From: Trueperaceae bacterium
GTDB taxonomy: Bacteria; Deinococcota; Deinococci; Deinococcales; Trueperaceae
NCBI GenBank assembly: GCA_030147925.1
Contig: JASBUK010000042.1
Span: forward strand, 1-64,000
DNA: 64,000 bases
Reading direction: 5' to 3'
Shown here: positions 24 to 27,179 of the stretch, in pieces
How positions within the stretch are numbered: position 1 is the stretch's first letter
Layout: every line of letters begins with the position of its first letter
Position numbers and translations under genes: made by a program
The notes under the pieces: generated by a model
Seen by the model: the letters and a program-made list of their open reading frames with translations, nothing else
The model's database searches: none
What the model was told of the DNA's origin: nothing

Positions 24-811
24 TCAAGAAAGTTTGGCTAACCTAGCTAGCATTAAACGTACCATAGCAGCGTAGATAAAAGCTTCACTGGATGCAGGTA
101 GGTGTTCATAGTCTTTGCTATGACGTCTATAACGGCAAATCCAAGCGAAAGTGCGTTTAACGACCCACCTGCGAGGTAAGACTTTGAAGCTGCGAAGTCC
201 TTTAAGCATGGCAAGTTGTTCGGGTGGGAGTTCTTGTCCCTTGGGAAGCCAGAAGCCTCGGATGCCCGCGTAGGCGTGCTGCACGACTTCGATAGTCCAG
301 CCCAAAGTACCCTCAACCCACTCCTGAAAGGTGCGCTTGTAGCCGCCATCGATGAATACACTGAAGTGCCCTTGTAAGCCCTCAAGGAGCTGCTTACCAC
401 CCGCTGGGTCGCTGACGTTGGCAGCAAGTACCAGCACGCTTAGCACAAACCCTTGCATGTCGACGAGTAGATGTCGCCTCCGCCCTTTGACCTTCTTGCC
501 GCTGTCATAGCCTTTGACGCCGCCCGCCCCGCCTGAATCCGAAGCTGCTCGCGTAACTGCCGATTCATCTCTTGCCACACCCCCTCGATACGCCAGTTGC
601 GAAAGTAGTCCTAGACGGTTTTCCACTTCGGCAGATCATGAGGCATCATGCGCCAAGCACAACCGCCACGCAAGATGTAGAAGATGCCATTGAGTATTTC
701 TCGTATGTCCACCGAGCGCGGACGTCCACCGGGCTTGACTGCTGGAATCAAGGGCTCGAGAATGGTCCACTCGCTATCACTTAGGTCACTCGGGTATGCT
801 GTTCGTGTCAT
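24..811 (-). pseudogene. IS5-family transposase, broken
   Basis: Begins at 811 with the N-terminal DUF4096-type domain (SDLSDSEWTILEPLIP, then RGGCAWRMMPHDLP). A TAG stop at 611-613 interrupts this frame, yet typical transposase sequence (DYFRNWRIEGVW) continues past it in the same frame. Near 515-540 the homology jumps to another frame at GGVKGYDSGKKVKGR. The stretch that normally holds the first catalytic Asp (DSQSVK region) is missing there, so this is a deletion plus frameshift. The second Asp is kept (IDGGY), but the usual catalytic Glu in RRWVVERTFAW is Lys here (VVKRTFAW, codon AAA). Many IS427-type transposases use a programmed frameshift, so two frames alone would not prove decay. 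The stop, deletion and Glu-to-Lys change together do. Confidence 0.85.
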
Positions 812-4343: not shown

Positions 4344-5180
4344 TTATTTGCCAAAGCGCCGCTCACGCGCCTGAAAGCTGCGCAGCGCCCTGAGAAAATC
4401 AAGCTTGCGAAAACTTGGCCAAAAGGCGTCACAAAAATAATACTCGCTATAAGCCGCCTGCCACAGCAAAAAGCCCGATAAGCGCACTTCGCCACTAGTG
4501 CGAATGACAAAGTCGGGGTCGGGTGTTCCGGCTGTGTAGAGGTGCTTGCCAATCTCCTCGGCATCGAGGCTGTCAGCGACCCTTTCTAAACCCTGGCCCG
4601 TTTTGGCTTTTTCCCACAGAAGCTTGCGCACGGCATGGGTGATTTCCTCGCGGCCCCCGTAGCCCACCGCCACGTTTAGCAGCATCTTGTCATAGTGAGA
4701 AGTGACGTTTTCTAAGTGCCGCAAGGCATCTTGAACATCATCGGGAAAGTCGGCCATGTCGCCAATGAGTTTTACTCGCACGGCGTTTTTGTGCACCCTC
4801 GGATCGCTGGCCATTTCGCTGGCTTCTCTAGCAAAGAGCTCTAAGAGCTGGGAGACCTCCTGCGGGTCACGGTTGCGGTTTTCCGAGCTAAAGACCCACA
4901 GCGTAACATGGTTTATGCCAAGTTGCAGACACCACTCTAAAACTTCTCGCGCCTTATGTGCCCCTAACTCGTGGCCACTGGCAATGTCTACACCCAGGCT
5001 GCGGGCAAAGCGGCGGTTGCCGTCTAGGATGAGTCCTAAGTGTTTTGGTAGCGGACCGCCCAAGCTGACCGCACGCAGCAAGCGGCGTTCATAAAGCCAG
5101 TACAGAGGGTTAGTCAGCCATTGCCAAATGCTTAGTGCACGTTTGGCGGTAGGTATGGTGCGATTAATAGCAGGATTCAT
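4344..5180 (-). CDS. uppS: cis-prenyltransferase (undecaprenyl diphosphate synthase family)
   Basis: A 278-residue isoprenyl transferase that extends an allylic diphosphate with isopentenyl diphosphate. The product supplies the lipid carrier for wall and polysaccharide assembly. Visible family marks are LILDGNRRFARS near residue 50 (catalytic Asp in DGN), LWVFSSENRNR, GYGGREEI, and DFVIRTSGEVRLSGF with WQAAYSEYYF. The N-terminal extension with LYWLYERRL resembles actinobacterial short-chain Z-isoprenyl synthases, so product length is uncertain and the uppS symbol is only a family label. It lies between rfbB and manC on the same strand, so carrier lipid and sugar donors may be made together. 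Confidence 0.88.
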   Translation of the reverse strand: MNPAINRTIPTAKRALSIWQWLTNPLYWLYERRLLRAVSLGGPLPKHLGLILDGNRRFARSLGVDIASGHELGAHKAREVLEWCLQLGINHVTLWVFSSENRNRDPQEVSQLLELFAREASEMASDPRVHKNAVRVKLIGDMADFPDDVQDALRHLENVTSHYDKMLLNVAVGYGGREEITHAVRKLLWEKAKTGQGLERVADSLDAEEIGKHLYTAGTPDPDFVIRTSGEVRLSGFLLWQAAYSEYYFCDAFWPSFRKLDFLRALRSFQARERRFGK

Positions 5181-9030: not shown

Positions 9031-9900
9031 TTAACCCTGAGCTAAGAGCTCGAGCAAATAACTACCATAGCCGCTTTTCTCCAGAGGCCTAGCAAGCGCC
9101 TCGAGCTCGCCAGCACTAATCCAGCCCTGCCGGTAGGCAATTTCTTCGAGACAGGCAATCTTAAGCCCTTGGCGCTGCTCGACCGTTTCGACGAAGTTGC
9201 AAGCCTGCAACAGCGATTCGTGTGTACCGGTGTCCAACCAGGCCATGCCGCGCCCCATCAGCTCAACCTGCAATTGCCCCCGCTCTAAATAAACCTTGTT
9301 GACATCGGTAATCTCATATTCGCCTCGCGCCGAAGGGCGCAGGTTTTGCACGATGTCCAGCACACTGTTGTCATAAAAATAAAGCCCCGTTACCGCATAG
9401 TGCGATTTGGGTTTGGTCGGTTTTTCCTCAATGCTTATGGCTTGGCCTGCGGCATCAAACTCCACGACCCCATAACGCTCGGGGTCACGCACGTAATAAC
9501 CAAAGACCGTAGCGCCCTGCCCGTTGGCCGCCGCGCGTTTTAGGTGCTGCCCAAAGCTCTGGCCAAAGAAGATATTATCCCCCAAAATCAGGCAAACCGA
9601 ATCTTTGCCGACAAAATCCCGCCCGATCATAAAGGCCTGCGCCAATCCTTCGGGTTTGGCTTGCTCGGCATAACTAAATGACAAACCCCACTGCGAGCCG
9701 TCACCAAGCAAACGCTCGAAATTTGGGCGGTCTTGTGGGGTAGAAATAATCAGGATTTCGCGGATGCCCGAAAGCATCAGAACCGAGATAGGGTAATAAA
9801 TCATCGGTTTGTCGTATATGGGTATGAGTTGTTTGCTGATAGCTTGTGTGGCAGGGTATAGGCGGGTTCCTGACCCCCCTGCAAGAACAATTCCCTTCAT
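9031..9900 (-). CDS. rfbA: glucose-1-phosphate thymidylyltransferase
   Basis: A 289-residue enzyme making dTDP-glucose from dTTP and glucose-1-phosphate, first step of dTDP-rhamnose synthesis. It begins [16 protein letters not shown] (nucleotide-binding motif) and continues with [43 protein letters not shown] and [11 protein letters not shown], all characteristic of RmlA. The length is standard. With rfbB, rfbC and rfbD it completes the pathway, although two toxin-antitoxin pairs now separate members of the set. Confidence 0.97.
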
Positions 9901-9921: not shown

Positions 9922-12405
9922 CTAATGTGCTCCACGGCGTTTTAGCACTACCGAGGCTGTTTGCAACAGAATAATTACATCCCACCAGATTGACCAGTTG
10001 CGAACATAATGCGATTCCATTTCCAGCCGTTCTTCAAAAGTTACTTCGCTACGACCACTTACTTGCCAGTAGCCGGTCATACCAGGTTTGGCCTCCAGGA
10101 TAACGTCATCATAGCCAGACATTTCCTCACGCTCACGCACCATATAAGGCCGGGGGCCGATCAAGCTCATTTCACCAATCACTACGTTATAAAGCTGAGA
10201 TAGCTCATCTAAGCTATAGCGTCGCAAGAATCGTCCTGCTTTTGTGATGCGTGGATCGTTTTCCAGTTTGTGATAAAGTTCGTACTCGCGGCGAACTTCG
10301 GGATCATGCTGCATCATTTCCTGCAAGCGTTCATCGGCGTCTATATACATGCTGCGGAATTTCAAACACTTAAACGATTTGCCATTTTGCCCGATGCGCT
10401 CACTCCAGTAAAATGCCGACCCCTTACTGTCAAAACGAACCCACAGATAGATAGCCAGCAAGAACGGGAAGATTAACACGCCACCTAAAACGCTACCTAC
10501 TAAGTCAATGCTGCGTTTAATTAGTTTGTTAGCCCGGGAGTGTAAACCATTGCGAATTTCCAGGGCCAGTAAGCCATCTAAATTGCCGGTGATGACGTCT
10601 TCGGCAGGTAAGCCCGACATTTCGGGAACAAACTGTACGTATTTAAATGCCTGCCCTTTGTGACCAATTAGCTGAGCAAGAACTTGTTTAGAAACTGTGG
10701 GTATAGCCACAATGGCATGACGAATGTTTCTACTTCTGGCAAAGTCATCTGCTGCCATTAGGTTGCCCTGCACCTCAAGTTTAGCAAATTTTTGCCCTAG
10801 TTTATTCCCGTCGTCATCAAAAAACGCCACTGGATGCAAACCATCAAGCGGACTACGTAGTAGTGCAGCAGCTACCCGCTGGCCGGTTTTCCCTGCGCCC
10901 AAAATAAGTACGGGTCGGCCCCACAGCCCTAAGCGCAAGAGCAGGCGCTTGGCCAGCGCCCGACCAAGCGGCGTCAGCAGCATGCTAAAAATAATGGTCA
11001 AAAACAAGACAGAGCGGGGAACAGGCAGCTCGCGGTAAAAGAGCACCGAAGCGGCAATTAGGATAAGTCCGGCATAGGCTGAGCCCATCACCTGCTTGCG
11101 CAATTCTTGCGGTGCGGTGAGGCCATAGCCCGGGTAAAGCCCTTCTCGCCAGAACATGATGGGCCAGAGCAGCAGGGTATAGGCAATGATAGTGATTGAC
11201 ACCCGCAAGGGCGCTATCTCTGAAATACCGGGTAGCATGCCCAGCCAGCTCCGCAAACCCAGAGCCAATACAAAGGACATTAGCACTCCTAAAAAATCCA
11301 CTGCCGAGAGTGCCAGCCGCGTTCCCAGCTGGCGCTCGAGCGAATCCTCACTGCTTATGTTTTCACGATAGCTGGCTGATCGCCAACCTGCCACTGCCGC
11401 CAATGGATAGAGCACTCCACCGTAAAGCAGTGTGTAATCAAAGATATTGGCTATCAGCAATGCTCCCCAAACCAGCAAGAGAGCCGCATCCCGCTGACGC
11501 CAGGCTGCTTGCCCTAGTGCCAGCAGTAGCAAGAACAAACCCCCCAAACCAAGCCAGCCCCGCTCAAACAGCATTTGCAAGGGGAGGTTGTGCGCGTGGG
11601 TAGGACTATTTCCTTCGTTTAGAGGTCTGTTGTTTTGATAATAAACCTCAAAGTTGTCTTGCCCCCAGCCCCAGAGCGGTTTTTCCTGAACTCCCTGCCA
11701 GGCGGCTTGCCAGTAAGAAGTCAGACCTGGTCTCGCCGTATCGTTGGCAAAAATTGTTGCTGCCGTGCTGCTGCGCGGCAAACCTCCGGCTAGCATCAGT
11801 GCTAACAAAGCCACCTCAAGAATGCGGTTATAACGTGTGCGTGGCAAGTTTATAAACAGCAAGCCAAAGGCCACTAGACTCCAGGCTATGATCAGCTCGA
11901 GCCTTCCCGAGAGCAACACACCCACCGCAGAAAGTATCAGACTGCCCAGCCTGAGCCCACCACGTGGCGCCATTATGGCAATGAGTACACCCAAAACAAA
12001 GACGGTGTGACCATAAAGCCCAACATTGGCCCAGGGCAAAACCCCAACAATAGGAGCAGGCAACCAACCCAAGAGCACCACTACCGCAAGACCGGCCAGC
12101 AAGCCCAAACCAAGCAGTGACGACCTTAGGGCAGGATGCTTGCGCGAATGCAGTTCTGCAAAGGTGCGGTAGATAAGCCAGGGTGCTAAGACCTGTAAAA
12201 AGCCAAAAAGAAATCCCCCCAATCCCTGTTGTACTGCCAAGGGTAAGGCTAATAAGAGCGCTGCTACTGCCCACAACAGATCAGAACGCTTAAGTGACCA
12301 ACGCGCCGCCAGAAAAAACAACAGGCCCGCAAAGGGGCCATAGGCGGGTAAAAAGGCAAAGCCAAAACCCAAAGCAAAAGCTGCGCCACTGGTTAAAAAC
12401 GTCAT
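9922..12405 (-). CDS. fused O-antigen ligase/polymerase-like and WbaP-type phosphoglycosyltransferase
   Basis: One open frame of 827 residues with two halves. Residues 1-345 form a Wzy/WaaL-type membrane protein: about ten helices with a periplasmic loop holding GWGQDNFEVYY and THAHNLPLQMLFERG, typical of the Wzy_C domain. Residues about 365-827 form a complete WbaP-like polyprenyl-phosphate hexose-1-phosphate transferase: four helices, a Rossmann-like domain (ILGAGKTGQR at 501-510), one further helix, then the catalytic domain with FRSMYIDADERL (Asp691-Glu692), LRRYSLDELSQ, MSLIGPRPY and KPGMTGYWQVSGR. It would start glycan assembly on undecaprenyl phosphate and polymerise or ligate the product. 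No stop or frameshift appears at the join. The usual form is two separate proteins. Confidence 0.9.
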   Translation of the reverse strand: MTFLTSGAAFALGFGFAFLPAYGPFAGLLFFLAARWSLKRSDLLWAVAALLLALPLAVQQGLGGFLFGFLQVLAPWLIYRTFAELHSRKHPALRSSLLGLGLLAGLAVVVLLGWLPAPIVGVLPWANVGLYGHTVFVLGVLIAIMAPRGGLRLGSLILSAVGVLLSGRLELIIAWSLVAFGLLFINLPRTRYNRILEVALLALMLAGGLPRSSTAATIFANDTARPGLTSYWQAAWQGVQEKPLWGWGQDNFEVYYQNNRPLNEGNSPTHAHNLPLQMLFERGWLGLGGLFLLLLALGQAAWRQRDAALLLVWGALLIANIFDYTLLYGGVLYPLAAVAGWRSASYRENISSEDSLERQLGTRLALSAVDFLGVLMSFVLALGLRSWLGMLPGISEIAPLRVSITIIAYTLLLWPIMFWREGLYPGYGLTAPQELRKQVMGSAYAGLILIAASVLFYRELPVPRSVLFLTIIFSMLLTPLGRALAKRLLLRLGLWGRPVLILGAGKTGQRVAAALLRSPLDGLHPVAFFDDDGNKLGQKFAKLEVQGNLMAADDFARSRNIRHAIVAIPTVSKQVLAQLIGHKGQAFKYVQFVPEMSGLPAEDVITGNLDGLLALEIRNGLHSRANKLIKRSIDLVGSVLGGVLIFPFLLAIYLWVRFDSKGSAFYWSERIGQNGKSFKCLKFRSMYIDADERLQEMMQHDPEVRREYELYHKLENDPRITKAGRFLRRYSLDELSQLYNVVIGEMSLIGPRPYMVREREEMSGYDDVILEAKPGMTGYWQVSGRSEVTFEERLEMESHYVRNWSIWWDVIILLQTASVVLKRRGAH

Positions 12406-12531: not shown

Positions 12532-14436
12532 TTATGGCACATTTAATGGCTGTGCAGGCTCAATCGGTTGCTCAGTATTCTCTTTGGCAAGGCCTTGATT
12601 ACGCAGGCTGTTCATACCTAAAATAAGCGGAAAGAGCACTCCGGCATAAAAGAAAGTGTAGTCAAAAATGTTCATGATAAGTACTGGAATAATCAGAGCC
12701 AGACCGTGCCAACGCCCCCAGCGCCACGCTAGATAAACAAAGCCACCGGTGAGCCAAATAATAGCCAACAAACCAGTAACACCATAGCTGACAGCAAACT
12801 GGAGCCAGAGATTATGCGCGTGGGCAACTATTTCTCCACTTGGTACACCTGTAGCTTCTATGTATTTTGCAAACTGAGACGCATTAACACCCGTGAGTCG
12901 ATATGCTTTGAAGGTGTCCCACGCAGTAGCCCATATAGTTCTTCTGAGTATCTGTGTTTTGGTATCAATACTGCTTACTCTGCCCAAATCTTCAGCTTCA
13001 AAAGAGGCTAGGATGGATATTCCTAGTATCATAACAATACCTAGAAGAACTAAACTTTGCCTAAGCCTTCCTTTTTGCACAAAACTCAAGTAGAGCAACC
13101 AAGTAAAACCTAGAATTAGTGATAGCCAAGCGGTCCGAGAACCAGTCATCCACACAACTGGCAGCGATAGGAAAATTACACCTAAGGCCGGTAGAAGATA
13201 GTTTCGTGATGCGAGAGACAAAAATGCTATCAAACCCAGAACGGCAACTGAATGCCCTGCAAGGTTGGCATGTGGAAAAAAATAACGTTGACGAAATTGA
13301 CTAAGAGGTTGGGGGGGGGAGACTGTCAAGCGTTCTTGAGTGACTGCTGATTTAATTTCAAAATTTTGGATCCTAAGGAATTTGATACTATTGTTTGTTT
13401 CCTTACCTAAGTGGAATCTCACTATGATATAGGAGGCTGACTGATTTAGTTTTATCGGTATGATAAAACGTTGGATTTCATTTGTGGGCACAAATCCACT
13501 TGCTGCAAGCCGTTTAATGCGTCCGTTAGCGTCCAAAGTGGAAATAGAGATATAAGGGCTTGCAGGGATAAGCGGTGCAAGTTGTTGCCAGGCTTGACCA
13601 TTTTTAATGAATAACTTGACATTACGAACATCAAAGCTTAGACCTGCAAAATTAGTAAGATCCAAATAAACTGTATTAGAGTTAACCTCTTCAGGTACAG
13701 TCCAAACCAAATCAAATGTTTTCCAGCGACTCTCTAGTGACACAGATAAACACTTTTTCCCTCGGTTGTCGATTTCGGCATATCCAGCGATTAACATGAT
13801 TCCACGACAACCCTCAGGATTAACCTCCTGGGATGCACGCATCTGGAGAGAAGCTCTAAAAGTCCTGCCTCCTGCCGGATAACCAAGCTCGAAGCTCCGT
13901 CTAAGGCGGGGATTTCCATTAGATGGAGTGATGACACGTGTAAAAAGCTGCCCGTTTTCTATATAAGGTTCTAGTTGATAATCCGGATGATTGCGGAGCC
14001 AATCCCAGTCTTGGACTACTTGCCCCTTCTCTATTTTGGCATCAAAATCTAAAATAACGGATTCAGTAGGCTTAGATGTTTGCCATACACGTAATCCTTG
14101 ATTGGGGACATCATAGGTTAGTAATTGATTGACGATTTTCGTAGAGCTTAAATCAGTGGTGCCATCCCATACATAGGCAGATAAACGCCATGCAGCAATA
14201 CCAATAAAAAAGGTGATTACAAGTAACATGACTAAAGCATTAACGGTGAGTCTTGGATATTTTATTAAAACAATTGAAGCCCCAACAAATACTACTCCTA
14301 ATAGCATTTGTCCCATTGCCTCTAAAACTCTGACATCATTTTTTATGAGGTAGCGAAAGGCAAAAAGGATAAAAGGAATGCCCCATAGCCAAAGCCACGG
14401 TGAAATGATGGGGGATAATTTATTAAAATTTCGCAT
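12532..14436 (-). CDS. O-antigen ligase-family membrane protein with large extracytoplasmic insert
   Basis: About 634 residues. Three N-terminal helices are followed by about 300 hydrophilic, beta-rich residues (92-395), then helices ending in a Wzy_C-like domain with TGSRTAWLSLI, AHAHNLWLQFAVSYG and IFDYTFFYAGVLFP. The last motif closely matches the ligase half of the next gene (IFDYTLLYGGVLYP), so the two are paralogues. The insert, with stretches such as RTFRASLQMRA and KTFDLVWTVP, looks like a carbohydrate-binding beta-sandwich, but no family can be named by eye. It may hold the acceptor or the growing glycan. The base composition is AT-richer than the fused gene downstream. The ATG at 14436 is preferred over the TTG just before it. 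Confidence 0.83.
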   Translation of the reverse strand: MRNFNKLSPIISPWLWLWGIPFILFAFRYLIKNDVRVLEAMGQMLLGVVFVGASIVLIKYPRLTVNALVMLLVITFFIGIAAWRLSAYVWDGTTDLSSTKIVNQLLTYDVPNQGLRVWQTSKPTESVILDFDAKIEKGQVVQDWDWLRNHPDYQLEPYIENGQLFTRVITPSNGNPRLRRSFELGYPAGGRTFRASLQMRASQEVNPEGCRGIMLIAGYAEIDNRGKKCLSVSLESRWKTFDLVWTVPEEVNSNTVYLDLTNFAGLSFDVRNVKLFIKNGQAWQQLAPLIPASPYISISTLDANGRIKRLAASGFVPTNEIQRFIIPIKLNQSASYIIVRFHLGKETNNSIKFLRIQNFEIKSAVTQERLTVSPPQPLSQFRQRYFFPHANLAGHSVAVLGLIAFLSLASRNYLLPALGVIFLSLPVVWMTGSRTAWLSLILGFTWLLYLSFVQKGRLRQSLVLLGIVMILGISILASFEAEDLGRVSSIDTKTQILRRTIWATAWDTFKAYRLTGVNASQFAKYIEATGVPSGEIVAHAHNLWLQFAVSYGVTGLLAIIWLTGGFVYLAWRWGRWHGLALIIPVLIMNIFDYTFFYAGVLFPLILGMNSLRNQGLAKENTEQPIEPAQPLNVP

Positions 14437-14502
14437 CAATCGTGCCCAAAACTATCCTTAAGTTATTTGAGTAACTGAGGTTTGTCGCAATACAATATAG
14501 AC

Positions 14503-17445: not shown

Positions 17446-18296
17446 AAAGTGTTTTTTATCCTCAAAATGCCTATGCCAATTAACAAAAAGCGAATATCGT
17501 GGGACTTGGAAGACTCTTTGATAGAGGCTCCGAGAATGTATAGGCGAATCAGCAAACTTTTGAAAAAGTTTTTCTCATGTAGTATTTTCCAAGAGTATAT
17601 CTTATCTTGAAACCTAAACAGCCTTTTTTTTGTCCCTTCGCTAGGATCTAATAAAGCAGATTCGTGCTTAAAGGTATAATCGATAACACAGAGCTCTGTT
17701 TTGTGTTGAGCATAAGTAAGCATGAAGTGGGTATCAATGCCATACAATTTCAATCGTTCATCATAGCCTGGAAAGAGATCTTTAAGGTAATCAAATTTAA
17801 TCACCATTCCACTGTTTATTGCCAATAGGCTCTTGGATCTTAAGACTCCAGTAGTTCGCTTGGTCCAATACTTACCTTTTATATATTTATAGCTTCCAGG
17901 GCTGATAATAGTGTCATTAGATAAAACTAAGGGTAGAAAGAGAGAAATGTCTGGATATGCTTTAATGGTTTTTAATAATTCTGCAAAGAACATAGGTTCA
18001 AAAGAGGAGTCCTGATCCAAAATTAATAAGTAATCAAAATCATCATGTGTGCTAATAACCCTATTATAGATCTTAGATAAAGCTATGTTTTGCGGAGTAT
18101 GCTTATACTCAAAGTCATCAACAAACTGCAAGTGCTGAGGGTCAGCAGCTTGTAACTCAGGACTATTATCCCAAAGAAGCAATTTTGAGTTAGATAAGTA
18201 TGCCCTACTTTTCTGTAATGAAGCTATTGTTTTTGATAAACTCCATTTAGTCTTATAAAGTACTGTAATAATTAGAAAACGTGGGGGTTTATTCAT
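17442..18296 (-). CDS. glycosyltransferase family 2
   Basis: About 284 residues. The GT-A core shows [26 protein letters not shown] and [11 protein letters not shown], the last giving the metal-binding Asp motif. This form (LDQD) occurs in RfbF-like rhamnosyltransferases. A C-terminal amphipathic stretch may touch the membrane. The open frame reaches a TTG at 18308, but the ATG at 18296 overlaps the wzy stop by 8 bases and is the likelier start. The next gene follows with a 4-base overlap. Confidence 0.85.
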
Positions 18297-19644
18297 ACTG
18301 ATGCCCAAATGATTGCAACTCTAAGTACTTGGATGTCAATTTTTTTCCTTGGTGTTGAGTTTTGTAGATGGAGACACTGGAGATGAGAGGAAAAAGGTAA
18401 AATAAGAAATAATTCACAGATCCTGCCGTATGTTGAAAAGTAAATACATATAACATAACTAGAATATAAACTAGAGAAAATTTGACGAAAAATCTCGCCA
18501 AAGGGTTACTTCCTGGCTTCTTAAGCTGGGAATAGCTCCTTGCAAGCCTACTAATGACTATGTAGAAGAAGTAGAGAAAAAGTAAAGTGGCTGTACCAAA
18601 GGTCAAGAATATATAAATATAAAAAGAATCGAATCTAGCCGTGTAGCTACCAAGACCCGATCCCAGAACAGACAGGTTTTTAAATAGATAGCTATACTGA
18701 TCAAGTCTGCCTATAGAGGACGCATCATTTAAAAAGCCTCCTAAGATAATATACATAAATGAAAATGCAATAGTAAGTATTGGAAGGATAAATGAAAATT
18801 TATATAAGAGCCGAACCCTTGAAGACAAAGAATAGGAAAGAAATAACCCAAGTATTAGGATAATGAACCCAGTACGTACATTAGTTGTATATAAAGCAAA
18901 AACAGTCAAGAAGAACAATATTAGGTATAAAAGATTCTTTCTCACAAAGAAATAGTTGATAATAAAGATTGAGAAGAAGCCCAAAAACAGAGAGTAGTCA
19001 AGCGCAGAAATAAAAATACTAGCTACTCTTAACTCTCCATTCCTAATAAACTGATTTGCTAGTAAATGTGCAACCAATTCTGGACTTTGCTCAGGATTTT
19101 GTTCTAGCTTCAACTCTAATAACTGCTCATAGCGCCATGTTTTTGTATAGTCACCATCGAACGTGAAAAATTCGTAAAAACCAAATGCCATGATCAATAT
19201 AGCTAAAAAAATATAAGCATTAATCAACAATTTAAATTTAATTTCTTTTGCCTGAATTACTGAAACTAACAGAAATGATAGTATCATTGGTAACAAAAGA
19301 ATTCTTAAGTCTTTTAGAGCTTCTGAGAGTGGAACACTAGAAATAAAAATACCAATCACAGATAAACTTAAGAAAATAGCAAAAACCTGAATATCAAAAA
19401 TACCTATAGTCTGTTTTTTGATGTGTTTAAAGGTAACGGCTAAGAGCAGAAAAATAAGGAGCACTTCAAGAAAGGTTTTGGATAAGGTTATGTCTATAGC
19501 CAGCCAATCTTCAAGTTGTAAAAATATAAAGTCGTAAAGAAGCAAATACAGCAGCACCAGAAGTACCAGGACAAACCTGCTTTTTCTGAAAAACAGTAAA
19601 AAGGAACTAGTAAAATAAACAGTTAAAAAAATGAGATTTGTCAT
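18289..19644 (-). CDS. Wzy-like polysaccharide polymerase
   Basis: A 451-residue integral membrane protein with about 11-12 hydrophobic helices and one larger extracytoplasmic segment near residues 160-205. The C-terminal part has ASSIGRLDQYSYLF and SVLGSGLGSYTARF, the pattern of Wzy_C/O-antigen polymerase proteins (large loop followed by a GxGxG-like turn). It would polymerise repeat units outside the membrane. This is the third Wzy/WaaL-class protein in the cluster, so one probably polymerises and another ligates. Such proteins diverge fast, and the call rests on topology and context. The gene is very AT-rich. Confidence 0.8.
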   Translation of the reverse strand: MTNLIFLTVYFTSSFLLFFRKSRFVLVLLVLLYLLLYDFIFLQLEDWLAIDITLSKTFLEVLLIFLLLAVTFKHIKKQTIGIFDIQVFAIFLSLSVIGIFISSVPLSEALKDLRILLLPMILSFLLVSVIQAKEIKFKLLINAYIFLAILIMAFGFYEFFTFDGDYTKTWRYEQLLELKLEQNPEQSPELVAHLLANQFIRNGELRVASIFISALDYSLFLGFFSIFIINYFFVRKNLLYLILFFLTVFALYTTNVRTGFIILILGLFLSYSLSSRVRLLYKFSFILPILTIAFSFMYIILGGFLNDASSIGRLDQYSYLFKNLSVLGSGLGSYTARFDSFYIYIFLTFGTATLLFLYFFYIVISRLARSYSQLKKPGSNPLARFFVKFSLVYILVMLYVFTFQHTAGSVNYFLFYLFPLISSVSIYKTQHQGKKLTSKYLELQSFGHQYE

Positions 19645-19710: not shown

Positions 19711-20661
19711 TCATGAAGGTTTGTATTCCTGGGTTGTCTCTAACAATTGACTGGCTAAGTTAGTATCAGGTTGATAGAGGCTATCTGACCAGGGTGCTTT
19801 AGTGTTAAAAAGTTTATTAAGGGTTTGAGTGTCGTGGATGTAATGCTGTTTTATTTTTCGAACTACTTCGGGTGCATATGCTTCAACGGCCACTTCATCT
19901 TTGATTGTGTTCCACTGCTCAAACCAGTAACGCAGGGGTATGCGCTGTCTTTGCGGTAAAAGATGCCAAAGTTTAATAAGTGGGCTGTTTTTAACGCGCT
20001 TACGAAAATCAGGCAGTTTTCTTTTTAGACCACCCTGATGAAATTTTTTACCTATGCCATTAGGATAGATCTCTTTAAGCCCGAGAAACTGATAGATACG
20101 CATCATGACTTCTTTAGGCCGCTCAGCTAAATCTTTTGTAAAGAGTATAAGTAGTTGCTGTTTTGGAAATACCTCGAGATAGTGTTGCAAGATGCGCCCG
20201 TATTCACCCCAAATGATGTAGCTATTGGTTTCTGTGGGGTGTGCTCTGGCAAGCTCAAGTTCATCGGGTTGCAAAAGTTGATCCACCAAAGCTTCTAGGG
20301 GTCTTAATTCACGCTGGCGTTTAATGTTCATCTTATAGTGCGAAAAGACTCGATCAATAGGGCTCCTGAGAATTGCAATAAGCTTTGCATCTGGACATTG
20401 TTGATAAATCCTATTTGGAGTTCCCTGATGATACATGTACTGTGGTGTCGCTGTTCCCCATTGTTTTTCTGTTGCAGCCCCTCGAAAGTATTCGTCTACA
20501 TACCATGCCCAACCTTGATTATATACATCTTTATCATGAAAAAAGGGTGCTTCTTTACTGGTAGGCATGTATACATTGGGGTGTTGAGACAAATGTTTGT
20601 AAAGGGTTGTAGTTCCTGACTTTTGGGCACCAATAATAAAAAAATCCAGATGTGTTTTCAT
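19711..20661 (-). CDS. PAPS-dependent carbohydrate sulfotransferase
   Basis: A 316-residue sulfotransferase. The 5'-phosphosulfate loop is at the N-terminus (FFIIGAQKSGTTTLYKHL) and the 3'-phosphate-binding segment follows at about residue 100 (AILRSPIDRVFSHYKM). The KEAPFFHD stretch is also typical of the heparan-sulfotransferase-like group. It should transfer sulfate from PAPS to a sugar hydroxyl of the exported glycan. cysNC, cysD and cysQ, which make PAPS and remove PAP, lie a few genes upstream, supporting a dedicated sulfation line. It overlaps the upstream acyltransferase by 4 bases. Confidence 0.9.
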   Translation of the reverse strand: MKTHLDFFIIGAQKSGTTTLYKHLSQHPNVYMPTSKEAPFFHDKDVYNQGWAWYVDEYFRGAATEKQWGTATPQYMYHQGTPNRIYQQCPDAKLIAILRSPIDRVFSHYKMNIKRQRELRPLEALVDQLLQPDELELARAHPTETNSYIIWGEYGRILQHYLEVFPKQQLLILFTKDLAERPKEVMMRIYQFLGLKEIYPNGIGKKFHQGGLKRKLPDFRKRVKNSPLIKLWHLLPQRQRIPLRYWFEQWNTIKDEVAVEAYAPEVVRKIKQHYIHDTQTLNKLFNTKAPWSDSLYQPDTNLASQLLETTQEYKPS

Positions 20662-21254: not shown

Positions 21255-22612
21255 AAAGACCTTCTTTGTTGGGTAACTTTACTATATCTTCCAAAAATAT
21301 GGGCATCAATGCCCACGATGCGTCGCACATAAATGGCTGCCACAATAGTGGCGAATGAGGTTGAGAAAGCTGTTGCTAAAGCTGCACCTTCTAAACTCCA
21401 CACGGGAATTAAAATACTGTTCATAATAACATTTGTCATGGCAGATACACCTATAATGTTTCTCAATACTTTTTCGTGACCTGTCATGACAAGCACCTGT
21501 CCTACTGAACCTGTTGAGACATTAATAAATTGCCCCAATGACAAAATAGCTAAGGCTCTAGAGCCACGTACAAACTCTTGACCAAAAAGACCAAGAACAC
21601 TGGAGGGAAAAATTATATAGATAACTAAAATGACAGTTGCAACTAGGGTCATTAACCTAGTTGCAACAATAACAGTGCGAGTGAGATTAGATAAATCCCC
21701 ATTTTTCCAAAAAACAGCAATTTTAGGTGATAAGATGCTGTTAAAGGCTGCCAACACAAAACTTACCAACAGCGAGAGCCGTGTAATGATCCCATAAACG
21801 CCTACATCAGAAGAAGTCTGAAAAATTCCTAGCATCGTAATGTCCGTGTAATTATTAATAATGTTCATGGACGCCACTAAAAACAATGGCAAACTGGTGG
21901 ACAATAGTGTTCTGGCACTGAATTTACCTTTTAAGCTGCGAATATGGGGTAGAGCTCGCCACACTAAGTAAAAGGCAATACACCAAGTGATAACGGTGGC
22001 GAAAACATAGGCTGTGACTATCTTGATAACGGTAACTGGAACAAACAAAGACAATATACCAACTGACGTCACCAGGATAACAGGCACCATAGCCGTTTGA
22101 ATAAGACTGGCAGTTCCTACACGTTTTAGCCCATTGAGGGTTTGTGCCTGTAATATAGCTAAGCTAAAGGGAAGGATAGCTAGTGCCATAATTTTCAGTG
22201 ACAGATTTAGCTCGGGCTCCTTAAAAACCAATAAGGCAATAGGGCGGCTAAGCAAAAAGACACTGATGGCGACTATCCCCGAAGCTATAAGTGCTAGCTT
22301 ACGGCTTTGCTTTATTACGCCAGCGACACTGTTCCAATCTTTACTATCACTATTCGTTGCAACGAAGCGCAAAACAACATTGTCGAGACCTAGACGACCT
22401 GCAACCGTAGCCAAGGTAACAACTGACAGGGCTAAAAAATAGATACCTGCACCATTAGCGCCGATAAGCCGTGCAATCAGGAGATTGAGAATAAAGCCAA
22501 AGCCTGCACCAAAGATACGTGACACAAAGGCCAAGGAAGAGCCTCGAATAATCTCTCTAAGATGGGAATCAAACCACGGCACAACGGGGATACGTACAAA
22601 CGAAAATTTCAT
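21251..22612 (-). CDS. Wzx-like polysaccharide flippase
   Basis: A 453-residue MATE/MVF-type membrane protein with about 12-14 helices, beginning near IIRGSSLAFVSRIFGAGFGF, a typical polysaccharide-transporter N-terminus. It should flip undecaprenyl-linked repeat units to the outer face before Wzy acts. An upstream start at 22642 exists, but the ATG at 22612 forms an exact 4-base ATGA overlap with the stop of the UGDH/CysC chimera. Its translation therefore probably depends on ribosomes finishing that reading frame. It is the only Wzx candidate in the window. Confidence 0.88.
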   Translation of the reverse strand: MKFSFVRIPVVPWFDSHLREIIRGSSLAFVSRIFGAGFGFILNLLIARLIGANGAGIYFLALSVVTLATVAGRLGLDNVVLRFVATNSDSKDWNSVAGVIKQSRKLALIASGIVAISVFLLSRPIALLVFKEPELNLSLKIMALAILPFSLAILQAQTLNGLKRVGTASLIQTAMVPVILVTSVGILSLFVPVTVIKIVTAYVFATVITWCIAFYLVWRALPHIRSLKGKFSARTLLSTSLPLFLVASMNIINNYTDITMLGIFQTSSDVGVYGIITRLSLLVSFVLAAFNSILSPKIAVFWKNGDLSNLTRTVIVATRLMTLVATVILVIYIIFPSSVLGLFGQEFVRGSRALAILSLGQFINVSTGSVGQVLVMTGHEKVLRNIIGVSAMTNVIMNSILIPVWSLEGAALATAFSTSFATIVAAIYVRRIVGIDAHIFGRYSKVTQQRRSL

Positions 22613-23265
22613 AAATTGATATGTTGAACAGCTTTTAAGCATTTTTGCTCAAAACACTTATCAATGTTTGTCTCCCTTGTTTTAAGAACGGCCTTAGGCT
22701 TACAGAGCTGCTCATAAGGTGTACCAATTCCCATGAAATTATTGATTTCACCCGATCTGGCTTTGCCACAAAGATCTTTAGGGAGACGCTCTTCACAAAC
22801 CTCTAAAAGTGTTTTTACAAAGACTTTAATAAACTTACTCTCCGTCAAAAGCTCCCTAATAATATTCCTTATAGGCACAGTGGATTTATTGACCACTACC
22901 AGTTTGGCATCGGCCCGAATACAAGCAGCCACTTCTTTAGCGGCAGCATCGACATAGCGCAAATCGGCGTCGCCATTATCTTTGGTGGGAGTGCCCACGG
23001 CAATGAGTACCACGCCTTCACCGCGTAAGGGTGGGATGGTATCAGAAAAGCTCAGTTTATCTTTAGTTTCGTCAAGTAGTTCCTTTAGACCTGGTTCATG
23101 AATAGTGGGAATACCAGCTTTTAGACTTTTGATGATAGCCGGATTTTTATCAACGCATGTTATCATTGCCTGCTCTATACTCTCTACCTTAAGGGGATCA
23201 TCAAGGTGCTCCTGTAGGATGATATTTTTAAGCTTACTCCACGCTATTTTTATTGCCTGATTCAC
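22609..23265 (-). pseudogene. chimeric relic: UDP-sugar dehydrogenase piece joined to APS-kinase tail
   Basis: An intact 218-residue frame made of parts of two unrelated enzymes. Residues about 36-131 match the N-terminal domain of UDP-glucose 6-dehydrogenase (CVDKNPAIIKSLKAG, IHEPGLKELL, VVLIAVGTPTKDNG, LVVVNKSTVP) but lack the leading GxGxxG NAD loop and the catalytic Cys domain. Residues about 132-207 match the C-terminal third of APS kinase (FIKVFVKTLLEVCEER, ARSGEINNFMGI, PYEQLCKPK) without its P-loop. The same segment occurs intact in cysNC next door. Neither half can be catalytic. The GTG start at 23265 has a GGGAGGC site, and the stop overlaps wzx by 4 bases, so the frame may be kept only for translational coupling. 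Confidence 0.82.
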
Positions 23266-23495: not shown

Positions 23496-25424
23496 TCATT
23501 TAGCTCCGTTAGCGAGCATGTTACTGCTTACGAGGAAGCCAATTATTTTTTCTACACATTCCTCTACCGTGTCTCGCTCGGTATAGAGGATGATTTCTGG
23601 TTTGCTGGGCGGCTCATAGGGGCTGTCTATACCGGTGAAGTTCTTGATTTCCCCTTGCCGTGCCCTGGCGTATAACCCCTTGGGATCACGCTGTTCACAG
23701 ACTTCTAGAGGGGTGTCTACAAAGACTTCGATGAATTCGCCTTCCGGTATTAGCGCCCGAACCAGGTTACGATCGCTCCTAAAGGGGCTGATAAAAGCGG
23801 TGAGCACAATAAGACCGGCATCGACAAAAAGTTTGGCGGACTCGCCAATGCGGCGAATGTTTTCCACCCGGTCTTCATCACTAAAACCAAGATCTTTATT
23901 CAGGCCGTGGCGCACATTGTCGCCGTCTAGCAAGTAGCTGTGATGGCCCATTTGAAAGAGGCGGTATTCCAAAGCGTTGGAGATAGTAGACTTGCCGGAA
24001 CCGGAGAGACCGGTAAACCAGAGGATGCAAGGCTTTTGACTCTTTTGGTTGGCACGTTCTTGCTTGCTGACCTGGTGTTCGTGCCAGATCACGTTGACAG
24101 CTTTATCAAGCATAGGGGCTTTGGCGCTTTTGGTGATCATGCCGGCTCCAACCGTGGCGTTGCTTAAGCGGTCAATGATGATAAAGCTGCCGGTAGCGGC
24201 TGAGCTGCTATAAGGGTCAAAGGGAACAGCCTGGGTGAGGCTGAGTTTGCACAGGGCAATTTCATTGAGGTGCAGTGTGCTGGCCTCGGCGTGTTCTAAA
24301 GTGTTGACATCTATTTTGTGCTGGATGCGCTCGATAATGCCGGGGCTGAGTTTGGGGCCGAGTTTTATGTCATATTGTTTGCCGGGAAGCATAGGGGTTT
24401 GCGACATCCAGACAATGTTGGCGTCAAAGCTGTTGCCTACACTGGGGGCGTTATCAGGGTGGCTGAGCATATCGCCGCGACTGATGTCGATCTCGTCGGT
24501 CAGGGTGACGGTGACAGCCAATGGGGGTTCGGCCTCGCTCAGTTCGCCGTCAAAAGTAATGATGGATTTTACGGTGCTGGTTTGACGCGAAGGGAGCACC
24601 ATGACCTTGTCACCTTTGCGAATAACCCCGGCGGCGACGGTGCCGCAAAAGCCACGGAAGTTATGACTAGGGCGGTTGACGTATTGGATGGGCAGACGCA
24701 TGTCACTGAGATTGCGGTCACTGGTTATCTCGATATGCTCTAGGGTATGCATCAGCGTTTCACCCTGATACCAGGGGGTATGTTCGCTTATCTTGACTAC
24801 GTTGTCGCCTTTTAGCGCTGAGATGGGAATAAAGCGCAAGTCCTGAGTGGGCAGGTTTTGCATAAACGCCCGATAGTCTTGCTCGATTTGTTTATAAACA
24901 TCCTGGCTATAATCAACCAGATCCATCTTGTTGATGGCGATGATGATGTGTTTGATGCCCAGCAGCGAAGCAATGAAGCTATGGCGTTTGGTTTGAGTTT
25001 GTACCCCGTTGCGGGCGTCGATCAGGATGATGGCCAAGTTGGCAGTGGAGGCGCCGGTGGCCATATTGCGGGTGTATTGCTCGTGGCCGGGAGTGTCGGC
25101 AATTATGAACTTACGTTTTTCCGTCGAGAAATAGCGGTAGGCTACATCGATGGTTATGCCCTGTTCACGTTCTGATTGCAGGCCGTCTACCAGCAGAGCC
25201 AAGTCCATCCCGTCGCCGGTAGTACCAAACTTACCGCTGTCGTTTTTTACGGCGGCAAGTTGATCTTCATAGATCATTTTTGAGTCGTGCAGCAAACGGC
25301 CAATTAGAGTGCTTTTACCGTCGTCAACGCTGCCGCAGGTGATAAAGCGCAGCAGTTCTTTTTGCTCGTGTTGCTTTAGGTAGCTGTGGATGTCTTTATG
25401 GATGAGTTCGGATTGATGGGACAT
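23496..25424 (-). CDS. cysNC: sulfate adenylyltransferase subunit 1 / adenylylsulfate kinase (CysN/CysC fusion)
   Basis: A 642-residue bifunctional enzyme. The N-terminal translation-factor-like GTPase has [24 protein letters not shown] and NKMD and drives APS formation together with CysD. Beta-barrel domains follow to about residue 450. The C-terminal APS kinase (464-642) has P-loop GLSGSGKST at 472-480, [15 protein letters not shown] and [16 protein letters not shown], giving PAPS. The ATG overlaps the cysD stop by one base (TAATG). No PAPS or APS reductase and no sulfate transporter lies nearby, so the PAPS made here more likely feeds the sulfotransferase than cysteine synthesis. Confidence 0.96.
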
Positions 25425-26332
25425 TAAAAGTACCCTTGCTTTTTCTTTTCTTCCATGGAGCCGGCCTGGTCAAAGTCGATGAGGCGGCCCTGGCGTTCGG
25501 AATTTTTGGCTAGCAGCATTTCCTGGATGATGTCAGGCAGAGTTGTGGCGTTGGAGACGACGGCCCCGGAGAGCGGGTAGCAGCCGAGGGTACGAAAGCG
25601 CACCATTTCCAGGCTGGGCTTTTCGCCGGATTTTAATTGCATGCGCTCGTCATCGACCATAATCTTTACACCTTCACGTTCGACGATGGGACGCTCCTTG
25701 GCAAAATACAGCGGCACAATAGGGATGTCTTCTAGGTGGATGTACTGCCAGACATCCAGTTCCGTCCAGTTGGACAGTGGGAAGACACGAATGCTCTCGC
25801 CCTTCCTGACTTTACCGTTGTAAACATTCCAGAGCTCAGGGCGCTGATTTTTGGGGTCCCAGCGGTGGTGCTGGTCGCGAAAGGAGTAAACGCGCTCTTT
25901 AGCGCGGGATTTTTCCTCGTCGCGGCGGGCGCCGCCAAAGGCCGCATCGAACTTGTATTTGTCAAGCGCTTGTTTGAGCGCTTCGGTCTTCATGATGTCG
26001 GTGTAGATTTTGCTGCCATGGGTAAAGGGGGTGACGCCCTGTTTAACGCCTTCTTGGTTGGTATAAACGATTAGCTCCAAGCCGAGTTTTTTGATATAGG
26101 CGTCGCGAAAGCTAATCATGTCGCGGAACTTCCAGGTGGTGTCGACATGCATGAGCGGGAAAGGCAGCTTGCCCGGATAAAAAGCCTTCATGGCCAAGTG
26201 CAACATCACCGAGGAGTCTTTGCCAATAGAGTAGAGCATGACGGGGTTGTCAAACTCCGCGGCGACTTCGCGAATGATATGGATGCTTTCGGCCTCAAGC
26301 TGTTTTAGGTGTGTCAAGCGGTGATTTGTCAT
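25424..26332 (-). CDS. cysD: sulfate adenylyltransferase subunit 2
   Basis: A 302-residue PP-loop ATP pyrophosphatase that forms APS from ATP and sulfate. [20 protein letters not shown] holds the SxGKDS pyrophosphate loop. [27 protein letters not shown] and [16 protein letters not shown] are diagnostic of CysD. The C-terminus ([12 protein letters not shown]) is the standard ending. The gene is joined to cysNC by a 1-base overlap and to cysQ by a one-base gap, so the three form an operon. Confidence 0.97.
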
Positions 26333-26333
26333 C

Positions 26334-27179
26334 TTAGTCCTTTTGATTAGCTCGGGGCTTGTGCTGCTGAATATATGATAACCAGACCCCCGATGAGCTG
26401 ACGATAAAAAATGGATTAAGCAGGGAATCTTTGTGATTGTAGCGCAAAGATTCGCCAGAACCTATATTTAGCACAGAACCACCGGCCTCTTCAATGACGC
26501 ATTGCGCAGCGGCGGTGTCCCACTCCATAGTGGGGCCAAAACGGGGATAGAGATGCGCCCGGCCCTCGGCGACTAAGCAGAACTTTAGGGAACTGCCAAC
26601 GGAGAGGAGCTGGATATTGGGGAATGTTGCTTTTAGCCGCGTTAGAAAAAGCTCGGTCTCGGGCCCGGCATGCGAGCGGCTGGCGACAATGTTTAAGCTG
26701 CCTTGCTGGTAATCCTGCACGCTAATGCGAGTTGTCTGTCCTTCTGAGGTAGTTTTGAAGGCGCCAAGAGATTTGGCCGCCACATAACTGACATCCAAGA
26801 CTGGAGCGTGTACGACCCCGAGAACGGGCTGATTGTTGTGTATCAGAGCGATATTGACGGTGAATTCGCCATTTCGCTTGATGAATTCCTTGGTGCCGTC
26901 AAGTGGATCGACGAGCCAGAATGTCGTCCAGTTTTGACGCTCGCTAAAAGGAAGATGCTGGGATTCTTCCGAAAGCACCGGAATATCCGGGCTCAGCTCT
27001 TTTAATTGCTTGACAATATGCCGGTGCGAAGCTAAATCGGCAAGAGTTAAGGGCGACTCATCTGCCTTATAGCTAATATTTAGTTCCGTTTTAGCATAGA
27101 CCTCTAAAATAGCCCGACCGGCTTCCTGGGCGATGATTTTAACGCGTGGTAAGAATCTTTCGAGTGTAGTTATATCCAT
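26334..27179 (-). CDS. cysQ: 3'(2'),5'-bisphosphate nucleotidase
   Basis: A 281-residue member of the inositol-monophosphatase superfamily that hydrolyses PAP, the inhibitory by-product of sulfotransferases, to AMP. Metal-binding motifs: [29 protein letters not shown] (DPLDGT) and [17 protein letters not shown]. It is first in the cysQ-cysD-cysNC unit. The presence of PAP removal beside PAPS synthesis supports a sulfotransfer role for the module. Confidence 0.94.

Follow-up and report, generated by a model that had tools for sequence, protein, structure and literature searches.

A Wzy_C-family membrane protein fused to a WbaP-type phosphoglycosyl transferase in the Trueperaceae

Priming enzymes, Wzy_C proteins and described fusions

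Large phosphoglycosyl transferases (PGTs) of the WbaP type (TIGR03022; 8T53, 9S7S) combine a four-helix membrane bundle, a PF13727 domain and a PF02397 core with an Asp-Glu pair. The protein analyzed here has the same parts and matches these enzymes from the first helix to the C-terminus, but it carries a complete Wzy_C membrane protein before the N-terminus of the PGT. With WaaL, the O-oligosaccharyltransferases and Wzy (PF04932; 7TPG, 9RMK) it shares a Wzy_C domain and an HxH active-site signature. Unlike those proteins, it is C-terminally continuous with a PGT, its relatives bear a domain similar to that of a GTA spike fibre in the extracytoplasmic loop, and the copy studied here is without arginines equivalent to R191 and R265 of WaaL.

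Bifunctional monoPGTs (Bi-PGTs) form a recognized class, whose PGT core is joined to functional domains (PMC10942596). The present protein resembles them in having an extra domain fused to a PGT and differs in that this partner is a predicted polytopic enzyme of the periplasmic face, joined to a full large PGT. No description of a Wzy_C-PGT fusion was found in the literature searched, which included few subscription papers and did not extend to the PGT-fusion survey of O'Toole et al. (2021); priority for the architecture is not certain. Deletions of WbaP alter O-antigen chain length, and according to a 2023 study experimental evidence is lacking for a priming enzyme complexed with the flippase, polymerase or ligase machinery (PMC10030265). 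A fusion maintained across a family constitutes evolutionary evidence linking the start and the finish of the pathway functionally.

One open frame and its distribution across the Trueperaceae

The window, a stretch of 64,000 nucleotides analyzed as a whole, belongs to a member of the Trueperaceae (Deinococcota) from a genus other than that of Truepera radiovictrix. The first-pass annotation had described one uninterrupted frame of 827 codons holding both proteins, and this was borne out on the minus strand, with the following features (window coordinates).

9922–12405, minus strand: fused gene, Wzy_C-family half and WbaP-type large PGT half (ATG start, 827 aa, one open frame)
11368–12405, minus strand: ligase/polymerase-like multi-pass membrane half, residues 1–346 (Pfam, structure-profile match, hydropathy)
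11539–11940, minus strand: Wzy_C (PF04932), residues 156–289 (Pfam)
11590–11598, minus strand: H270-A-H272, the Wzy_C active-site signature (alignment to HAHN of WaaL)
11332–11379, minus strand: linker joining the halves, residues 343–358 (no conserved internal start codon)
9925–11340, minus strand: WbaP-type large PGT half, residues 356–827 (TIGR03022, WbaP structures)
10675–11106, minus strand: CoA_binding_3/DUF domain (PF13727) of the large PGT, residues 434–577 (Pfam)
9940–10518, minus strand: Bac_transf (PF02397) catalytic domain, residues 630–822 (Pfam)
10204–10209, minus strand: catalytic Asp733-Glu734 (alignment of fusions)

The window protein is a single-chain fusion of a Wzy_C-family protein and a WbaP-type priming enzyme. 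Its Pfam matches cover positions 3–147 of the 149 in the Wzy_C profile (E 6e-16; 59 bits vs a cut-off of 31.7) and the whole of Bac_transf (1–179 of 179; E 4e-62, above cut-off), and PF13727 scores 36 bits against a cut-off of 25. The NCBIfam model for the WbaP subfamily, TIGR03022, covers residues 368–826 with 453.5 bits (cut-off 403), and residues 356–827 align end to end with solved WbaP structures. Both D733-E734 and the histidines H270 and H272 are invariant in an alignment of 15 fusions, comprising the window copy and 14 complete relatives of 1014–1094 aa. The complete glycosylphosphotransferase with an Asp-Glu pair reported by the first-pass annotation is thereby upheld. A profile built from the N-halves matches WaaL (7TPG) and an oligosaccharyltransferase (9RMK) in the loop that bears the HxH motif. 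Members of the Wzy_C family have about 12 transmembrane helices and a large periplasmic loop; hydropathy is compatible with a multi-pass N-half, to which the four helices of the large-PGT bundle succeed, and an AlphaFold model built from the single sequence was uninformative (mean pLDDT 42). Of the two halves, the priming one appears intact and the ligase one altered. Judged by its predicted domains, the protein is a Bi-PGT, with an additional, putatively functional domain fused to a PGT in one chain.

A frame crossing the junction was found in 20 of 39 Trueperaceae genomes, some of these frames being cut by contig ends, and in 14 of the 17 genera. The carriers include the closed, single-contig chromosome of T. 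radiovictrix, where the fusion is a 1060-aa ORF; its 3,260,398 bp are the size published for strain RQ-24T (PMC3072082). That two neighboring genes were joined by an assembly or frameshift artefact could draw on the division of the window genome into 151 contigs, but the recurrence of the frame in these 20 genomes and 14 genera, closed isolate genome included, and the similar length of the linker among the aligned fusions make an artefact scarcely credible. No stop or frameshift lies near residues 345–365 of the window sequence. A separate WbaP produced from an internal start was likewise rejected, since the linkers of the relatives share no position at which an internal start codon recurs. 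In nearly half of the family genomes, the single-contig genome G007 among them, no fused frame appears, and the fusion is therefore not indispensable. Genome G016 was rejected as an unfused family member, because the first part of its "stand-alone" WbaP frame is antitoxin-like and the frame then crosses a run of N, which makes it uninformative.

Beyond the family, no fusion was found in 72 other Deinococcota genomes, where the WbaP-type enzyme, if present, is solo and mostly encoded by frames of about 480–550 aa. No match crossed the junction in 340 further genomes (with scoring limited to two candidates in each, and including two Deinococcota counted above), or in a junction-profile search of 391 genomes, in which a few ligase frames of 600–780 aa were not opened; this wider scan of about 730 distant genomes is a sample, less complete than the family scan. 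The long PGT frames that were opened outside the family encode GT2-PGT fusions, GT4-PGT fusions or a PGT alone, and candidate G042 was rejected as a fusion, consisting of two adjacent genes. No record of a plasmid collection covered 80% of the fusion query, the best match being a stand-alone wbaP; a scan of a genome contig collection with the fusion gave one distant PGT only, and matches among viral contigs were confined to the PGT half. The architecture, which the first-pass annotation had called unusual, is rare and conserved across one family, the Trueperaceae. Other bifunctional PGTs encountered in the survey, of the GT2-PGT and GT4-PGT kinds, lie at L057 1027–3429, L058 933–3134, L060 2034–4544 and L062 1205–3349.

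Maximum-likelihood trees, one per half, address the history of the fusion. The fused WbaP halves form one clade (bootstrap 94) and the fused ligase halves form another (90), which also takes in G035_C58, a long-branch and poorly delimited unfused frame, and has as its sister the unfused 531-aa ligase of G017. Solo ligases fall in a separate clade, together with the ligase next to WbaP in the outgroup genome G040. Both trees recover a clade of the window copy with T. radiovictrix (G012) and G021, as well as the same eight-member clade; deeper branches disagree between the two and are weakly supported. The grouping of the fused halves in both trees favors a single fusion event in the ancestor of the Trueperaceae, or of most of them, with subsequent inheritance as a unit.

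Loss and retention in the ligase half

Comparison with the relatives singles out two positions in the N-half of the window copy.

11899–11901, minus strand: L169, aligned with WaaL R191; Arg in 9 of 14 relatives (alignment, structure-profile match)
11719–11787, minus strand: residues 207–229, the site at which relatives carry an extra beta-rich extracytoplasmic domain of about 200 aa (alignment)

This extra domain, overlooked by the first-pass annotation, is present in all 14 complete relatives and absent from the copy in the 151-contig window assembly. It matches NF048003, a GTA/phage head-spike fibre domain, with 36.8 bits in T. radiovictrix and 47.6 in G002 (cut-off 36), and two relatives give weak matches to CBM_4_9 and Laminin_G_3; from these matches it is likely to be a carbohydrate-binding beta domain. 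At its C-terminal end stands an arginine, aligned with WaaL R265 and found in 14 of 14 relatives, in place of which the window copy has L228, so that the arginines aligned with R191 and R265 are both missing. The Wzy_C protein that had been described as complete is so over the length of the profile, but not when set against its relatives, from which it differs by a domain and two arginines. With its shortened extracytoplasmic loop, the window variant offers a built-in natural comparison.

The residues H133, H270, H272 and R282 are retained in the N-half, whose divergence, measured against that of the C-half (ratio 0.92), is within the range of the relatives (0.82–1.01). On this ratio, relaxed decay of the window N-half is rejected overall, and the conserved residues together with the ordinary divergence indicate a half that is altered rather than simply decaying. 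For PglS, a relative of these ligases, it has been proposed that arginines guide Und-PP and coordinate it, with a histidine acting as the base (PMC12800693). The change of two conserved arginines and the missing extracytoplasmic domain thus render the activity of the window ligase half doubtful. The missing arginines weaken the case for canonical ligase catalysis in this copy, not that for homology to the Wzy_C family.

Genomic context and proposed function

The fusion lies among genes for glycan assembly, three of which are listed here.

12532–14439, minus strand: unfused Wzy_C-family ligase/polymerase, 635 aa, directly upstream of the fusion (Pfam)
9031–9900, minus strand: glucose-1-phosphate thymidylyltransferase of the RmlA type, immediately downstream (synteny with T. 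radiovictrix and G021)
4344–5180, minus strand: undecaprenyl diphosphate synthase of the UppS type (synteny with the fusion seen in relatives)

The window, T. radiovictrix and G021 have one gene order in common, namely unfused ligase, fusion, rmlA, rmlD, rmlC, rmlB and uppS; manC comes next after uppS in the first two and was not recognized in the G021 stretch, and in other relatives the fusion neighbors uppS and/or manC. The fusion and the adjoining ligase, which keeps the GSR, Arg(-4) and HAHN motifs, are the only Wzy_C genes found in the window genome, and its two PGT genes are the fusion and a small PGT (208-aa frame) elsewhere, with no other large PGT. The cluster further encodes glycosyltransferases (one a Cps2T-like rhamnosyltransferase), acetyltransferases, a sulfotransferase, Wzx, a Wzz/GNVR co-polymerase and genes for PAPS supply. 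A large extracytoplasmic region of the unfused ligase (about residues 85–360) precedes its Wzy_C domain; in the fused relatives, by contrast, the extra domain sits within the Wzy_C loop itself.

We regard it as fairly probable that the fusion is a lineage-specific bifunctional PGT that tethers the loading of undecaprenyl phosphate (Und-P) to the periplasmic transfer of Und-PP-linked glycan, and we infer its topology, both activities and the coupling of the halves. The hydropathy of the N-half fits many helices with an extracytoplasmic loop and a cytosolic end, followed by the PGT bundle. This would place the active sites of the halves on opposite faces of the membrane, in line with the first-pass annotation. 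Fusion would have placed a Wzy_C-family Und-PP-glycan transferase ahead of a WbaP-type large PGT. At the cytosolic face, the C-half would load Und-P with hexose-1-phosphate, which enzymes of the WbaP subfamily take from UDP-hexose, and thereby initiate the repeat unit of the Wzx/Wzy-type, rhamnose-containing glycan that appears to be encoded around the fusion. The N-half, with a predicted active site on the periplasmic face, would belong to the class that moves the flipped Und-PP-glycan to an acceptor or a growing chain, and the tether would hold both ends of the carrier-lipid cycle together. In the window organism, transfer by the N-half may be reduced or altered, and the adjacent unfused ligase could carry that step. 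More tentatively, one chain might both load the undecaprenyl carrier at the cytosolic face and unload the finished glycan at the periplasmic face, closing the Und-P cycle; if true, such a chain would serve as a natural "Rosetta stone", evidence for priming and periplasmic transfer enzymes in one complex. As a single purifiable chain, the fusion lends itself to tests of coupling, local carrier recycling and stoichiometry.

The altered arginines give the window copy a serious rival explanation, in which its ligase half has little or no catalytic activity and acts as a scaffold. It would anchor or dock the priming enzyme at the membrane complex of Wzx, polymerase and co-polymerase, leaving the chemistry to the adjoining unfused ligase. 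The loss of both arginines and of the domain of about 200 aa, the canonical motifs of the neighboring ligase and the lack of the R191-equivalent arginine in 5 of the 14 relatives as well all point in this direction. Yet H270, H272, R282 and H133 are retained, the N-half is not diverging faster relative to the C-half, and R168 or R225 might replace the lost arginines. We judge a scaffold less likely than not. Another reading takes the Wzy_C half for a repeat-unit polymerase rather than a ligase, in which case the fusion would couple initiation to polymerization. The Wzy_C family (PF04932) spans both polymerases and ligases, and a Wzz-like co-polymerase is present in the cluster; against this, the multi-pass protein at 18289–19644 could itself be Wzy, and the best matches among solved structures are an oligosaccharyltransferase and WaaL, neither point being decisive. 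We consider a polymerase unlikely, and "O-antigen ligase" is used here as a family name only, since the Wzy_C half of the window protein may polymerize glycan or ligate it to lipid or protein.

Base composition also differs along the locus. The fusion gene has about 51% G+C, as is usual for the window, while the adjoining region from about 12 to 24 kb has 34–45%, which assigns the fusion to the conserved portion of the locus. The multi-pass protein mentioned above (451 aa; 18289–19644, minus strand) has no Pfam or NCBIfam match and is a candidate repeat-unit polymerase. The sulfotransferase and homologues of CysNC, CysD and CysQ, at 19711–20661 and 23496–27179 (minus strand), suggest a sulfated polysaccharide. 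Between them, a chimeric ORF at 22609–23265 (minus strand) joins an N-terminal UDP-sugar dehydrogenase fragment to a C-terminal APS-kinase fragment and looks like decayed remnants. Transposase-like fragments in two overlapping frames lie at the window edge (24–626, minus strand).
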